Shown: piece by piece, positions 465 to 51,076 of the stretch
Layout: every line of letters starts with the position of its first letter
How positions within the stretch are numbered: the stretch's first letter is position 1
Source: Anaeropeptidivorans aminofermentans
GTDB taxonomy: Bacteria > Bacillota > Clostridia > Lachnospirales > UBA5962
DNA length: 64,000 nt
Assembly: GCF_940670685.1 (NCBI RefSeq)
Contig: NZ_OW711693.1
Coordinates: 2,356,001-2,420,000, forward strand
Reading direction: 5' to 3'
Translations under genes and position numbers: made by a program
The notes under the pieces: generated by a model
Seen by the model: only the letters and a program-made list of their open reading frames with translations
Database searches by the model: none
Told to the model about the DNA's origin: nothing

Positions 465-1022
465 TTATACTCTTCCGAGATATTCTCCCGAACGTGTATC
501 TATTTTTATAACGTCTCCGATATTTATAAATAAAGGAACATTTATGCTTGTACCTGTTTCAAGCTTTGCAGGCTTTGTTGCACCTGTAGCAGTATCGCCT
601 TTGAAGCCCGGCTCTGTATCAACTACTTCAAGCTCTACAAAAAGAGGAGGCTCTATACCGAAAACCTTTCCGTTATGGGAAAGTATTTTAACCATTTCAT
701 TTTCTTTAACAAATTCCAAAGCGTCGCCAACATCAGATGCGTTAACAGCACTCTGTTCGAAGCTTTCAACGTCCATAAAATGGTAAAGTTCTCCGTCGGT
801 GTAAAGAAACTGCATATCCTTTCTGTCTATATGAGCCTTAGGCATTTTTTCAGATGGGCGGAAGGTTCTTTCAGTAACGCCGCCTGAAATTAAATTTCTT
901 ATTTTAGTACGTACAAAGGCGGCGCCCTTTCCCGGCTTTACATGCTGAAATTCAATTATAGTATAAATATCGCCGTCAATTTCAACTGTTACTCCATTTC
1001 TAAACTCACTTGCAGAAATCAT
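465..1022 (-). CDS. efp: Elongation factor P
   Basis: EF-P binds between the ribosomal P and E sites and relieves stalling at polyproline runs. The 185-residue protein has the usual full length and three beta-barrel domains. The N-terminal KOW-like domain carries the PGKGAAF loop, with Lys32 at the position that is modified in some bacteria, and the C-terminal OB domain ends in the typical [11 protein letters not shown]-type tail. An AGGAGGA ribosome binding site sits seven bases before the ATG. The gene stands alone between two terminators, so it is probably transcribed by itself. No modification gene (epmA-like or ymfI-like) is seen in the window. Family assignment is secure. Confidence 0.97.
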
Positions 1023-1196: not shown

Positions 1197-1643
1197 TTAT
1201 TGCTGATTAATTAAAATTTCATTTACAGCATCTAGGGCAAGTAAATATCCGTAAGAACCAAACCCGCAAAGCTGCCCTTTACACACCGGTGCAATAACGG
1301 AAGTATGCCTGAACTCTTCCCTTTGATGAATATTTGATAAATGTACCTCAACGGTTGGGATACTTACAGATGCAATACAGTCTCTTATGGCATAAGAATA
1401 ATGTGTATAGGCCCCAGGATTTATTATTATAGCTTCTACGCCTTCATAATAGCAAGACTGAATATAATTGATTATATCTCCTTCGGAATTCGACTGGTAG
1501 CATTCTGCGTCAAAAGAAAGCTCCTCAGCTCTTTCAAGGATTCTTTTATTAATATCGTCTAAAAATTCGCTTCCATAAAAATCCTTTTCCCTGATACCTG
1601 TAAAATTTAAATTGGGACCGTGGATTATTCTTACTTTATTCAT
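1197..1643 (-). CDS. aroQ: 3-dehydroquinate dehydratase, type II
   Basis: This enzyme converts 3-dehydroquinate to 3-dehydroshikimate in the shikimate pathway. The 148-residue length is normal for the dodecameric type II enzyme. Visible motifs are HGPNLN near residue 8, the flexible lid with Arg18 and Tyr23, INPGAYTHYS around 74-83, and the catalytic His101 in EVHLSNIHQREEFRH. The ribosome binding site AAGGGGTG precedes the ATG. The start lies 15 bases after the comFB stop, so the two genes are probably co-transcribed. No other shikimate-pathway gene is nearby, so regulation with the pathway is not evident. Confidence 0.96.
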   Translation of the reverse strand: MNKVRIIHGPNLNFTGIREKDFYGSEFLDDINKRILERAEELSFDAECYQSNSEGDIINYIQSCYYEGVEAIIINPGAYTHYSYAIRDCIASVSIPTVEVHLSNIHQREEFRHTSVIAPVCKGQLCGFGSYGYLLALDAVNEILINQQ

Positions 1644-1657
1644 AAACGCACCCCTTA

Positions 1658-1945
1658 TTAAGCTTCTGCGTCTTTCTTTTTATTATGTCTTGGATTTTTC
1701 TTTACTATATCCACAGCTCTCGCTATCGCTGAAACCACGTCTACATCAAATTGCTGCTGAAGTATAGAGACCTTAGAATATAACTGTCCTTTTTCCGTTG
1801 CAATATATTTTGGAGGCAGAGAGTTAAGCGCAACTGCCAGAATATCCATTCTGCATATTTCGCAGTCACAGCCGCCGCAGGATTCTATAACCTTGTCAAG
1901 GCTTTCCAAAACAATTTCCTCCATATAATTTTTAACAACTATCAT
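1658..1945 (-). CDS. comFB: ComFB-family protein
   Basis: The 95-residue protein matches the late-competence ComFB family, with its characteristic cysteine cluster CGGCDCEIC followed by DILAVALNSLPPKY. In Bacillus the gene lies in the comF operon, but its own role is poorly defined; in some bacteria ComFB-like proteins bind cyclic dinucleotides. The cysteines suggest metal binding, which is inference. The ATG at 1945 is chosen because GGAGGT lies just upstream; an alternative start six codons earlier overlaps that site. It is paired with aroQ rather than comFA/comFC. A prepilin peptidase gene lies 1.3 kb away, the only other hint of competence or pilus functions here. Confidence 0.8.
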   Translation of the reverse strand: MIVVKNYMEEIVLESLDKVIESCGGCDCEICRMDILAVALNSLPPKYIATEKGQLYSKVSILQQQFDVDVVSAIARAVDIVKKNPRHNKKKDAEA

Positions 1946-2182
1946 ATAATTACCTCCGGACATTATATTAATTTCAATTCGTCTGCATCTGTACTGTAAT
2001 CACACCTTAATCCGTTTTTATATCGTCTGTATATGTTGTCTTACGTTTATGCTTATTATTATCTATTTATACGTTACCTGCGAAAACGAAACAAGATTAA
2101 GTAACCTTGATTTTGTCTTATTTCTTTTCTGTCGTTCGTCTATTTATACGCTTTCTTTTGAAATATATTCGGTATTATATAT

Positions 2183-2662
2183 GAATACATTCCCTTCGCA
2201 AATGTATTCATAACTAAAATCAAGCCTTGCTTGATTTTGCCTTTTTTCTCTTCTGCCATTTATATATTCATACATTCCCTTCGGAAATGTATTCATAACT
2301 AAAATCAAGCCTTGCTTGATTTCGCCTTTTTTCTCTTCTGCCATTTATATATTCATACATTCCCTTCGGGAATATATTCATAACTAAAATCAAGCCTTGC
2401 TTGATTTCCCGTGCAGTCTTTCTCTCTTTTATATTCATACATTCCCTTCGGGAATATATTCATAACTAAAATCAAGCCTTGCTTGATTTCCCGTGCGGTC
2501 TTTCTCTTTTTTATATTCATACATTCCCTTCAGGAATATATTCATAACTAAAATCAAGCCTTGCTTGATTTCGCCTTTTTTCTCTTCTGCCATTTATATA
2601 TTCATACATTCCCTTCGGGAATATATTCATAACTAAAATCAAGCCTTGCTTGATTTTAGTTA
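2183..2662. repeat. Six-unit tandem array of double-hairpin repeats (family A, array 1)
   Basis: Six units follow each other at spacings of 85, 85, 82, 82 and 85 bases, measured from the ATACATTCCC motif of each (2185, 2270, 2355, 2437, 2519, 2604). Each unit holds hairpin 1 (ATACATTCCC, loop TTCG, GGAATATAT) and hairpin 2 (AAATCAAGC, loop CTT, GCTTGATTT), joined by TCATAACTA. The linker after hairpin 2 is of two kinds: a 26-base type containing CGCCTTTTTTCTCTTCTGCC and a 23-base type containing CCCGTGC. Only the sixth unit continues hairpin 2 outward into a 31-base palindrome (2631-2661). There are no unique spacers, so it is not CRISPR. The array fills the gap downstream of yqeG. Confidence 0.93.
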
Positions 2663-2742
2663 CATTATACATTTTTTCACTTTTTGTGGCAAGGTTTAAT
2701 AAATGAAACCTTAAATTTTATCCATAGAGATTTTTATTAGAG

Positions 2743-3237
2743 CTAATTTTTATAATATCTTTCAAGTATCTTTTTTTCAAGGCCTCTTTTTATTTTTACA
2801 GATAAAACGTCTTTATCTGAAACCGGCTTTACAAGAATAGTATATATATTGTTTAAGTTTCCGCATAGGACATCTGTAAAAATCTGGTCTCCTATAAGGG
2901 CTGTATTATTATTTTTAGCTTTTATCATTTTCATTGCTTTCCATATACCAAAGGGTAAGGGCTTTAACCCGTGGTGGATTGCTATAAATTTAAGGTCTTC
3001 ATTAAAAAGCGTAACCCTCTTTTTATGATTATTGGAAACAAAAGCTATTTTAAAACCCATTTTAATGAGCTTATCAAAAAGCTTTAAGGCTTTCTCTCCC
3101 GGTTTATGCTCCTCATATGCTGCTATGGTATTATCAATATCATATATTAGATATCTTATACCGCTATCATAAAGCTTTTTATAATCAACAGAAGAAATAT
3201 CCGGCAAATATTCCTTTGGGCAAAAAATTTTAAACAT
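2743..3237 (-). CDS. YqeG-family HAD phosphatase
   Basis: The 164-residue protein belongs to the HAD-superfamily subfamily IIIA (YqeG). The nucleophile motif is YDIDNTIA around residues 31-38, a second motif is FVSNN near residue 65, and GDQIFTDVLCGN near 115-126 provides the acidic metal-binding end. Related proteins are described as phosphatidylglycerophosphate or related phosphatases; the substrate here cannot be read from sequence. It begins three bases after the prepilin peptidase stop, with AGGGAG ahead of the ATG, so it is the third gene of the T-box-controlled alaS transcript. Confidence 0.85.
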   Translation of the reverse strand: MFKIFCPKEYLPDISSVDYKKLYDSGIRYLIYDIDNTIAAYEEHKPGEKALKLFDKLIKMGFKIAFVSNNHKKRVTLFNEDLKFIAIHHGLKPLPFGIWKAMKMIKAKNNNTALIGDQIFTDVLCGNLNNIYTILVKPVSDKDVLSVKIKRGLEKKILERYYKN

Positions 3238-6460: not shown

Positions 6461-6712
6461 CCGTAAAATAAAAAAGGCACCTTAAATATAGGGACGAATA
6501 AATCGCGGTACCACCCTAAGTTGCGTAAAAAACAAACGCCACTCGAACCGTTAACGCCGGCATACGTGGCTGCCTACACAGAATAAACCTTCGGCAGTCA
6601 GGGTTATAAAAAGCTGCTTCAGCAAAAAGCTACTGGGGAAATCTCACCCTAATCCCCTCTCTTTGAGGCTTCTTTTGCTTACTCCTCTTTTTCCCTTTAA
6701 ATAATAATATTT
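6461..6712 (-). promoter_or_regulatory. T-box riboswitch leader of alaS
   Basis: Read on the minus strand, the leader has the invariant T-box GGGTGGTACCGCG at 6505-6517, preceded by a stem III hairpin and a long stem I region containing GAGAGGGG. It is followed by a competing terminator whose 3' arm GGTGCC (6476-6481) pairs with GGTACC inside the T-box and runs into a T tract at 6465-6475. Uncharged tRNA should stabilise the antiterminator and switch on the operon. The specifier is expected to be an alanine (GCN) codon, but I could not place it with certainty. Confidence 0.93.
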
Positions 6713-21263: not shown

Positions 21264-21365
21264 ATGCACCACTTTCCAATCGTATTATCTCATAAACATA
21301 AGGCTTGAACGTGCGCACTCTTCATTCAATAAAAGCAAACGCCGTTTAACTTTATTATAGGACTC

Positions 21366-21874
21366 TTTAGCCTTTCTCGCATTCATACATTTCCCTTCGT
21401 GAAATGTATGAATGTAATAATCAAGCTTCCCTTGATTTTGATGTAGGGCTCTTTTGCCCTTGACCCATTCATACATTTCCCTTCGTGAAATGTATTCATG
21501 TAATAATCAAGCTTCCCTTGATTTTGATATATTGTTCTTTACCCCTTGACCCATTCATACATTCCCCTTCGTGAAATGTATTCATGTAATAATCAAGCTC
21601 CGCTTGATTTTGATATATTGTTCTTTACCCCTTGACCCATTCATACATTTCCCTTCGTGAAATGTATTCATGTAATAATCAAGCTTCGCTTGATTTTAAT
21701 ATAGGGCTCTTTTGCCCTTGACCCATTCATACATTTCCCTTCGTGAAATGTATTCATGTAATAATCAAGCTTCGCTTGATTTTAATATAGGGCTCTTTTG
21801 CCCTTGACCCATTCATACATTTCCCTTCGTGAAATGTATTCATGTAATAATCAAGCTTCGCTTGATTATTACAT
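21366..21874. repeat. Six-unit tandem array of double-hairpin repeats (family A, array 2)
   Basis: Six units of about 86 bases each hold hairpin 1 (ATACATTTCCC, loop TTCG, TGAAATGTAT), a joint TCATGTAAT, hairpin 2 (AATCAAGC, loop TTC, GCTTGATT) and a linker ending CTTGACCC. The linker has two versions; one contains a third small hairpin (AGGGC-TCTTTT-GCCCT). The first two units carry CCC instead of CG at the hairpin-2 tip. Only the last unit extends hairpin 2 into a 33-base perfect palindrome (21842-21874), which covers the stop codon of the PAP2-like gene. The design parallels array 1 at 2183-2662, including the copy number of six. Confidence 0.93.
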
Positions 21875-22321
21875 ATTATAGGCCGCTACGGATACAACGA
21901 TGCCGAGAACGGCGCCTGCCGCAACCTCAACGGGACTATGGCCGAGAAGCTCTTTAAGCTTTTTATCGAGAACGATGCCTGTATTTTCGATATTTGCCAC
22001 AAGTTTATTTATGATTTCCGCCTGTTTTCCTGCGGCTCTTCTTACCCCTGCGGCGTCATACATAACAACCATGCTTATAACGGCGCATATGGCAAAGGCC
22101 GTAGAGTCAAAGCCTTCAAGAAGGCCGACGGAAGTAGACATTGCCGAAACAAAAGACGAATGGGAGCTTGGCATTCCTCCGGAGCTTATCATAAGGGCAA
22201 GGCTTAATCTGCGTTCTTTTTTAAACTCAATCATAATTTTAATAAGCTGAGCAATGGCCCATGAAAATGAAGCTGTCCAAAAGATGCTGTTATTTATAAT
22301 CTGATTTATATACTTCAACAA
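21869..22321 (-). CDS. Divergent PAP2-family membrane protein
   Basis: The 150-residue integral membrane protein belongs to the divergent PAP2 (YuiD-like) family, related to phosphatidic-acid phosphatases. It has a GGMPSSHSSFVSAMSTSVG motif (about 47-65) and GHSPVEVAAGAVLGIVVS near the C-terminus, which correspond to the phosphatase SxxxH-type motifs. The substrate is unknown; undecaprenyl or isoprenyl diphosphate would fit the isoprenoid neighbours ispA and dxs, but this is inference. The stop codon lies within the terminal palindrome of the repeat array. Confidence 0.85.
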   Translation of the reverse strand: MLKYINQIINNSIFWTASFSWAIAQLIKIMIEFKKERRLSLALMISSGGMPSSHSSFVSAMSTSVGLLEGFDSTAFAICAVISMVVMYDAAGVRRAAGKQAEIINKLVANIENTGIVLDKKLKELLGHSPVEVAAGAVLGIVVSVAAYNM

Positions 22322-26098: not shown

Positions 26099-26425
26099 AA
26101 AAACCTCCCTATATCATAATCATCGTTTTTATTCATAGTATGTGCCAAATAAATAATAGTATATGCTTTTTTGTAATGTTTAAGAAAAATACTTGCTTTA
26201 TATATACGGGTTTAATGTTTGGATGTATTCGTAAACCAAAGCAATTTATAGATGCTTATACCCAATTGTATCATAAATCTAATTTTTACTCATGCATTTT
26301 ACTGCGTAAAATGCATCGGAGGGTGCTGCAAAATTTATTTTGCAACACCCCTATTATACCATATCTGGCTTATTTTGCAATCTTTTTGGCTTTATGCTGC
26401 ATCTTTTTATATCCTTTGAAAAATC
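26099..26425. other. Intergenic region with two strong hairpins
   Basis: No gene is supported. At 26293-26317 a hairpin ATGCATTTTA/TAAAATGCAT is followed immediately by a second at about 26323-26350 (GGGTGCTGCAAAAT/ATTTTGCAACACCC). The paired layout resembles the double-hairpin repeats elsewhere in the window but the arms differ. Confidence 0.45.
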
Positions 26426-27062: not shown

Positions 27063-27309
27063 CTTATCTACCCCCTTGATTAGAATTGTATCTTCGAGCA
27101 TTGTCGTGTGCAGTAAACAAATTTAAAAATAAGCAAATTAACCCTATAGGGTTTTGTTCTTCTAAATTTGTCTACCTAAATGCCCGGATGCATTTTAAAG
27201 CAAAACAAGATATATGCTTTTGTTACTGTAAAACTAATTTGTTTTACTATATATGCATCGGCAAAGGCTTTTAAAAGCCCTTGCTATTTCATAAGCGTAG
27301 GCTCTGCTC

Positions 27310-27369
27310 ATACATTTCACGAAGTGAAATGTATTCGTGGATAAAGCTAAGCAAAGCTTAGTTTTATCC
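27310..27369. repeat. Solo double-hairpin repeat (family A)
   Basis: Hairpin 1 (ATACATTTCAC/GTGAAATGTAT, 27310-27334) is followed by TCGT and hairpin 2 (GGATAAAGCTAAGC/GCTTAGTTTTATCC, 27339-27369). The order and spacing match the array units at 2.2 and 21.4 kb, but hairpin 2 has different bases with compensating changes. A half-copy (AAAATCAAGT/ACTTGATTTT) lies at about 27449-27473. The 27063-27543 gap holds no gene. Confidence 0.8.
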
Positions 27370-27543
27370 ATATTATAGCATAATTTAGGCTTTTTATCAT
27401 GCATTTCTTTTATAAAAACATGAATATAAAACCCATCTTTCCATAAATAAAATCAAGTTATAACTTGATTTTAATACAGTATACCATATACAGAATCTAT
27501 GGTCAACAAACCTGGAGTTAACGCCATTGTGTTATCAATCGTA

Positions 27544-48026: not shown

Positions 48027-48170
48027 TTATAGTAAAATAATTTGATTACGGTAATAAAAACCGTATATTTTGAATGGCTTAATATAAGCGTTCCTATTAT
48101 ATTAAACCGTTTGTGAAAAATAGATTTTTGTTACTGCCTTAAGTAGATGTTTCCAAAATTATGTTATTAT
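48027..48170. repeat. Family D relative
   Basis: It shares with 38636-38764 the run GTAATAAAAACCGTATATTT then TGAATGGCTTAATATAAGCG and the later TTTGTGAAAAATAGA/TTTTTGTTACTGCCTTAA. The outer ends differ (TTATAGTAAAATAATTT on the left; AAATTATGTTATTATGGTAG on the right) but still pair imperfectly. Confidence 0.75.
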
Positions 48171-48180
48171 GGTAGAATAT

Positions 48181-48240
48181 GAATAAAATCAAGCAAAGCT
48201 TGATTTTATTCACGAATACATTTCCCTGCGGGAAATGTAT
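48181..48240. repeat. Solo double-hairpin repeat (family A, reverse order)
   Basis: Hairpin 2 (GAATAAAATCAAGC/GCTTGATTTTATTC, 48181-48211) comes first, then ACGA, then hairpin 1 (ATACATTTCCC/GGGAAATGTAT, 48216-48240). This is the array unit read from the other strand. The flanks GGTAG and CTACC (48171-48175 and about 48250) also mirror each other. It lies 58 bases upstream of purH. Confidence 0.85.
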
Positions 48241-48298
48241 GAGGAAAAACTACCATTATGGCATGGCAAATAATTTACTATTGAACGGGTGATAAAGA

Positions 48299-50774: not shown

Positions 50775-51076
50775 CTTTATGGTTAAGAAACTTGAAAAAT
50801 TTATAAGCCTGCACTTGTACTGTTTTTCAGATTCCCTTGGTATAATAGAAATAAAATGAAGCTTCACCTGATTTTATTCGCGAACACATTTTCCCAAGGA
50901 AAATATATAAGCAAATCCTGCGATTTATGATATAATGCAAGCAAACCATTTTTATCCTCAAGTATTTATATTATATAATAAGACAATTTTATATTTTTGC
51001 CGTATAATAGATATATAATAAAGGCTTCTTATTGTTATCCTTATACGTTCTGCCTTTATTCAAAGAGGGTGAAAAT
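50775..51076. other. Gap between rnz and the ECF sigma gene, with a decayed family A repeat
   Basis: At about 50863-50912 the sequence ATAAAATGAAGCTTCACCTG, then ATTTTATTCGCGAACACATT, resembles the solo repeat at 48181-48240 with several mismatches. No gene is seen. Promoter elements for the sigma operon should be here but none is convincing enough to list. Confidence 0.4.

Follow-up and report, generated by a model that had tools for sequence, protein, structure and literature searches.

BOX elements of Streptococcus pneumoniae are built as boxA-boxB-boxC, where boxB can be absent or present in multiple copies, and they are over-represented between convergent genes (PMC3049150). BrickBuilt, a MITE of Porphyromonas gingivalis, carries promoter elements and an intergenic minisatellite placed between leader and tail subunits (PMC4596501). 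Extragenic palindromes are also reported in many copies as the REP/REPIN sequences that go with RAYT (PMC3116915), and REP/RAYT superfamilies are reported to carry GTAG or CGTC tags (PMC3733652). Here we analyse a six-unit array of double hairpins (array 1) from Anaeropeptidivorans aminofermentans and the family to which it belongs, which is best filed among modular, MITE-like intergenic repeats, BOX and BrickBuilt being its nearest kinds.

Like BOX, the present family is dispersed and intergenic, has fixed ends around a tandemly variable inner module, and would be structured if transcribed. When BOX is taken from its description, the two differ in that the present family lies upstream of genes in a preferred orientation and has both terminal -10 boxes and locus-specific linkers, whereas BOX has terminal inverted repeats and an enrichment in convergent gaps, neither of which is seen here. 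BrickBuilt likewise holds a minisatellite inside an intergenic MITE-like element with promoter elements, but its units are of 23 bp without spacers while those of the present family are double-hairpin units of 82-90 bp with spacers, and the phyla differ. Double-hairpin elements of fungal mitochondrial DNA, which are organelle elements, are small mobile-looking units with two hairpins, a trait common to them and the present family; to our knowledge, neither a promoter cap nor tandem arrays are known in them.

Architecture of array 1

The window studied is a stretch of 64,000 nucleotides of the genome, which consists of one 3.76 Mb contig. Array 1 comprises six units at 2175-2662, with two hairpins per unit (Table 1). 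TRF gives a period of 85, 5.7 copies and 91% matches (score 747), and the 82-nt copies begin at 2175, 2260, 2345, 2427, 2509 and 2594, with spacings of 85, 85, 82, 82 and 85, in agreement with the six-copy double-hairpin array described in the first-pass annotation. Hairpin 2, AAATCAAGC-CTT-GCTTGATTT, is identical across all six units and is lengthened in unit 6 alone to TAACTAAAATCAAGC-CTT-GCTTGATTTTAGTTA (2630-2662, 15-nt arms, 100% complementary), so that the palindrome, which the annotation gave as 31 bases, is indeed proper to the final unit. Unit 1 is special too, its hairpin 1 being a near-perfect long palindrome (ATGAATACATT...AATGTATTCAT), and in units 2-6 hairpin 1 has ATTCAT on either side. 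Comparison of the linkers returned the order A, A, B, B, A, as had been noted. Array 1 folds far better than dinucleotide shuffles on both strands, with z values of -14.2 on the minus strand and -10.9 on the plus strand, and an extra, decayed unit may lie beside it.

The end of yqeG, at 2743 on the minus strand, is about 80 nt away. The annotation had placed the array downstream of this gene, which is correct as to position but only half of the reading, the more telling fact being that the array lies upstream of comFB-aroQ-efp, in the orientation of most copies of the family. Its transcription into a chain of stem-loops, also proposed, is plausible on the minus strand. A coding repeat was rejected, as unit lengths of 82/85 are not multiples of 3 and the frame is broken. 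In an Rfam gathering scan of the window, only a T-box and tRNA were detected and no Rfam family covered array 1; the T-box leader is found at 6487-6705 on the minus strand, upstream of alaS.

Table 1. Coordinates, in the window, of array 1, its neighbouring genes and other members of the family
Feature	Position	Strand	Remarks
efp	465-1022		after aroQ, downstream of array 1
aroQ	1197-1643		after comFB, downstream of array 1
comFB	1658-1963	-	Pfam ComFB 2.6e-26; first gene downstream of array 1 in promoter direction
Probable decayed older unit	2106-2170	-	gene-proximal end; ~75% ungapped match to units at 2230, 2315, 2564
Gene-proximal promoter-like site TTGCGA-16-TATAAT	2174-2201	-	10/12, consensus match only
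Unit 1	2175-2259	+	with extended hairpin 1
Unit 2	2260-2344	+	linker type A
Unit 3	2345-2426	+	linker type B
Unit 4	2427-2508	+	linker type B
Unit 5	2509-2593	+	linker type A
Unit 6	2594-2662	+	terminal, without linker
Extended hairpin 2	2630-2662		inverted repeat, 15-nt arms and 3-nt loop
Distal promoter-like site TTGCCA-17-TATAAT	2664-2692	-	11/12 consensus match; abuts extended hairpin 2 of array 1
yqeG	2743-3237	-	upstream gene of array 1
Array 2	21356-21880	+	six units, upstream of dxs; special end as in array 1
Single copy	26262-26371	+	upstream of Asp23 family gene
Single copy	27280-27390	+	upstream of rubrerythrin
Single copy	48160-48270	-	upstream of purH
Single copy	50828-50939	-	

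A dispersed family of double-hairpin elements

The genome was searched with a single unit, which gave 90 matches, and with a covariance model built on 14 single or terminal copies, which gave 143. A profile search of genome stretches yielded about 140 units in 73 clusters, ranging from singles to ten in a row, a total that is approximate because a few are reverse-strand matches to the palindromes of units already counted; these family counts derive from model searches and from individual genome stretches. The unit occurs widely in its own genome, well beyond array 1, which supports a dispersed, mobile-looking family; the outcome that the first-pass annotation named as weakening a mobile interpretation thus did not arise. 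A single copy reads TTATATCATAAGCGTAGTTTTTGCTCATAC-hairpin 1-hairpin 2-ATTCATATTATAYCATAA. As expected of a MITE, the element is short (about 100 bp), non-coding, dispersed and many-copy; unlike a typical MITE, it lacks terminal inverted repeats, its ends GYGTAGTTTTTGCTC and TTGATTTTATTCAT not being inverted copies of each other. The linkers of array 2 are of two types, as in array 1, and follow each other in blocks P, Q, Q, P, P. The exact unit pattern had no match in other GTDB genomes (the own genome being left out of that search), and the family had none in viral contigs, plasmids and phages. An unrelated tandem array, with a 104-bp period and about 3.9 copies, is present at L023 930-1329.

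Special ends and probable one-sided growth of the arrays

Nearly every array ends as array 1 does, with an extended hairpin 2 and then a -10 box. Among arrays of at least three units, 13 of 14 distal ends have TATAAT, against 3 of 51 internal linkers. Reading from the distal -10 box, the extended hairpin 2 comes first, followed by hairpin 1, a linker and the remaining units up to the gene. Promoter-like sites overall show no excess in the window, where 4 were found versus 4.6 expected.

The linkers are array-specific, nearly uniform inside an array and different between arrays. In 10 of the 21 arrays, the linker matches the gene-proximal flank with 0 of 300 shuffles as good, and each of these ten linkers scores higher with the gene-proximal than with the distal flank. 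Some matching linkers are the family's usual left end, and the evidence is therefore clearest in five cases whose linkers are specific to the locus (L027, L032, two in L038, and array 2). The linker of array 1 itself gave no match to its gene-proximal flank, 96 of 300 shuffles being as good. The matches fit a one-sided duplication of the flank with both hairpins; together with the recurrence of the special end in nearly every array, their restriction to the opposite flank upholds the earlier proposal of an element with a defined end and one-sided tandem growth.

We favour, with a probability of roughly 55%, the reading in which a MITE-like or BOX-like element, lineage-specific, non-autonomous, non-coding and residing in promoter regions, was amplified locally to give array 1. 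Such an element, recognised as folded DNA, would insert at extended -10 promoter sequences (TTATGRTATAAT) or next to them. These sequences would set its orientation and leave a -10 box on each side, so that a site would read -10 box, extended hairpin 2, hairpin 1, short linker, second -10 box and then the gene. In a subset of sites, a junction within the outer arm of hairpin 2 would fuse to the gene-proximal flank, yielding a unit of flank, hairpin 1 and hairpin 2 that slippage or unequal exchange could multiply. Because the unit that multiplies would be built from the flank and the hairpins, the distal end, with its long palindrome and promoter, would be retained only once and the inner linkers would be copies of the local flank. 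One promoter would in this way be pushed outward and a chain of hairpins placed in the leader of the gene. At the level of sequence, the dispersal, the stem covariation, the placement in one orientation upstream of genes, the -10-capped array ends and the array-specific linkers are established.

Placement relative to genes

Gene context was taken from a simple, naive ORF caller. In 57 of 66 known cases, the gene lying on the hairpin-1 side has its start at the element; codirectional sites point at the next gene in 32 cases and away from it in 5 (binomial ~4e-6), and 22 sites are divergent while just 4 are convergent. The downstream genes examined are ordinary core genes such as dxs, purH, ftsZ, guaB, lexA, ispF, dnaX, sodA and comFB, and the ten-unit array is the one at ftsZ.

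This strong one-sided orientation, and the scarcity of copies in convergent gaps, where pneumococcal BOX is by contrast enriched (PMC3049150), would also be expected of a domesticated cis-regulatory leader, in which selection would retain the element for its promoter and RNA hairpins, acting on expression or mRNA stability and tuned by array length. We regard this explanation as possible though doubtful. It would agree with a promoter kept at the distal end only, and with a structure kept in two genera despite differing hairpin sequences. However, the downstream genes examined have no common theme, for which reason a regulon was rejected, and in the genome of a sister genus (G005) the orthologous comFB site carries no array: gene order is conserved there, and the comFB-yqeG gap is of 216 bp.

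The position of the copies bears also on the possibility that the arrays act as serial transcription terminators, or as insulators, separating neighbouring genes. Three terminator-like sites lie on the plus strand of array 1 versus 0.2 expected, and hairpin 2 is followed by a T-rich linker, but both flanking genes are on the minus strand, the T-rich linkers are array-specific rather than family-wide, and the family tends not to occupy convergent gaps, the places that call for terminators, making this reading very unlikely.

Covariation of the stems

Standard pairs make up 95% of the pair cells in the alignment of 14 sequences, and both partners have changed in 13 of the 27 pairs. A covariation score of 0.288 was obtained, versus 0.173 in shuffles, with 0 of 500 reaching the observed value, and at most 0.09 in slid structures; the covarying stems also hold across 61 single or terminal copies. 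As the stems covary, their bases are not fixed, and a protein operator was therefore rejected.

With the basal pair excluded, G-U on the modelled strand occurs 54 times versus 69 for its A-C counterpart, favouring no strand. Moreover, five covarying pairs fall between the -10 box and the expected transcription start and would thus be missing from an RNA initiated from that box. We infer from these two points that folding as DNA, or palindrome-correcting mutation, is favoured over a purely RNA role, and both points also count against the cis-regulatory leader. Alternatively, imperfect palindromes corrected by template-switch repair could have produced the covariation with no selection involved.

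A parallel family in a sister genus, and origin of the element

In G005, which represents another genus within the family, 28 matches were found to a parallel set of elements that share the ends, layout and orientation but have different hairpin sequences; many of these copies sit just 5' of a ribosome-binding site and start codon. This parallel set, and the lack of an array in the comFB-yqeG gap of G005, speak for the favoured reading. No other convincing carrier was found among the 57 and 295 genomes of the order searched, the 295-genome search, made with the end pattern, being convincing only for the own genome and G005. By AlaRS, the nearest named relatives are a Candidatus Epulonipiscium MAG and Anaerotignum, about 60% identical.

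In the own genome, the flanking -10-like repeats share within-locus deviations (28 versus 16.5 expected, p 0.0014), and in G005 such sharing is absent (p 0.24). With a signal that is modest in one genome and absent in the other, the -10 boxes may themselves be part of the element, and target duplication at insertion is unproven.

The first-pass annotation had raised a mobile or REP-like interpretation and proposed a look for a TnpA-REP (RAYT) type transposase. On such a view, the units would be REP/BIME-type repeats moved by a Y1 enzyme of the TnpA-REP/RAYT or IS200 kind. The genome does hold 26 Y1 (IS200-type) matches and many intergenic copies of hairpin elements, resembling in this the many-copy extragenic palindromes of REP/REPIN. 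However, none of the four IS200 types of the genome has ends with any sequence in common with the hairpin units, so that an IS200/IS605 derivative was rejected, and the GTAG or CGTC tag is absent from the consensus at either hairpin foot, GCGTAG occurring in some linkers only, about 13 nt away from the foot. Each unit also has two different hairpins, unlike REP/REPIN. The sister genus carries its parallel family with no Y1 match in G005, a genome 93% complete; the suggested origin is therefore unsupported, and this explanation is hardly credible. We found no mobilising enzyme for the element, which, like the lack of terminal inverted repeats and of a linker match to the flank in array 1, weighs against the favoured reading.

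If the insertion and amplification reading is right, one genome contains about 70 natural insertions of a hairpin element bearing a promoter, placed before ordinary and essential genes, and their copy numbers, from 1 to 10, would make the relation of leader hairpin number to expression directly testable. It would also raise the questions of what enzyme mobilises hairpin elements when a lineage lacks their usual Y1 partner, and of how hairpin sequences get replaced while ends and layout persist in the sister genus. A more general proposal, speculative and rather unlikely, would place the family in a class of oriented double-hairpin elements, capped by promoters, that target or replace extended -10 promoters, that keep their ends and architecture across genera while their hairpins turn over, that are moved by an undescribed hairpin-recognising enzyme, and whose one-sided arrays lengthen the leaders of core genes, ftsZ, dxs and comFB-efp among them.

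IS200-type copies in the genome

Several observations concern the IS200-type copies themselves. Four of them (L078, L080, L089 and L085, at 1040, 1850, 2317 and 133 kb) lie directly after a hairpin and a T run, as if targeting intrinsic terminators, and another (L086, 912 kb) lies directly after hairpin 2 of a double-hairpin element. At L079 868-2366, an IS200-type element sits within another of a different type. Finally, copies of a different dispersed repeat, about 130-140 bp long and with 79-91% identity among them, were observed near IS200 copies at L084 374-505, L088 1643-1774, L080 2072-2210 and L090 199-337.
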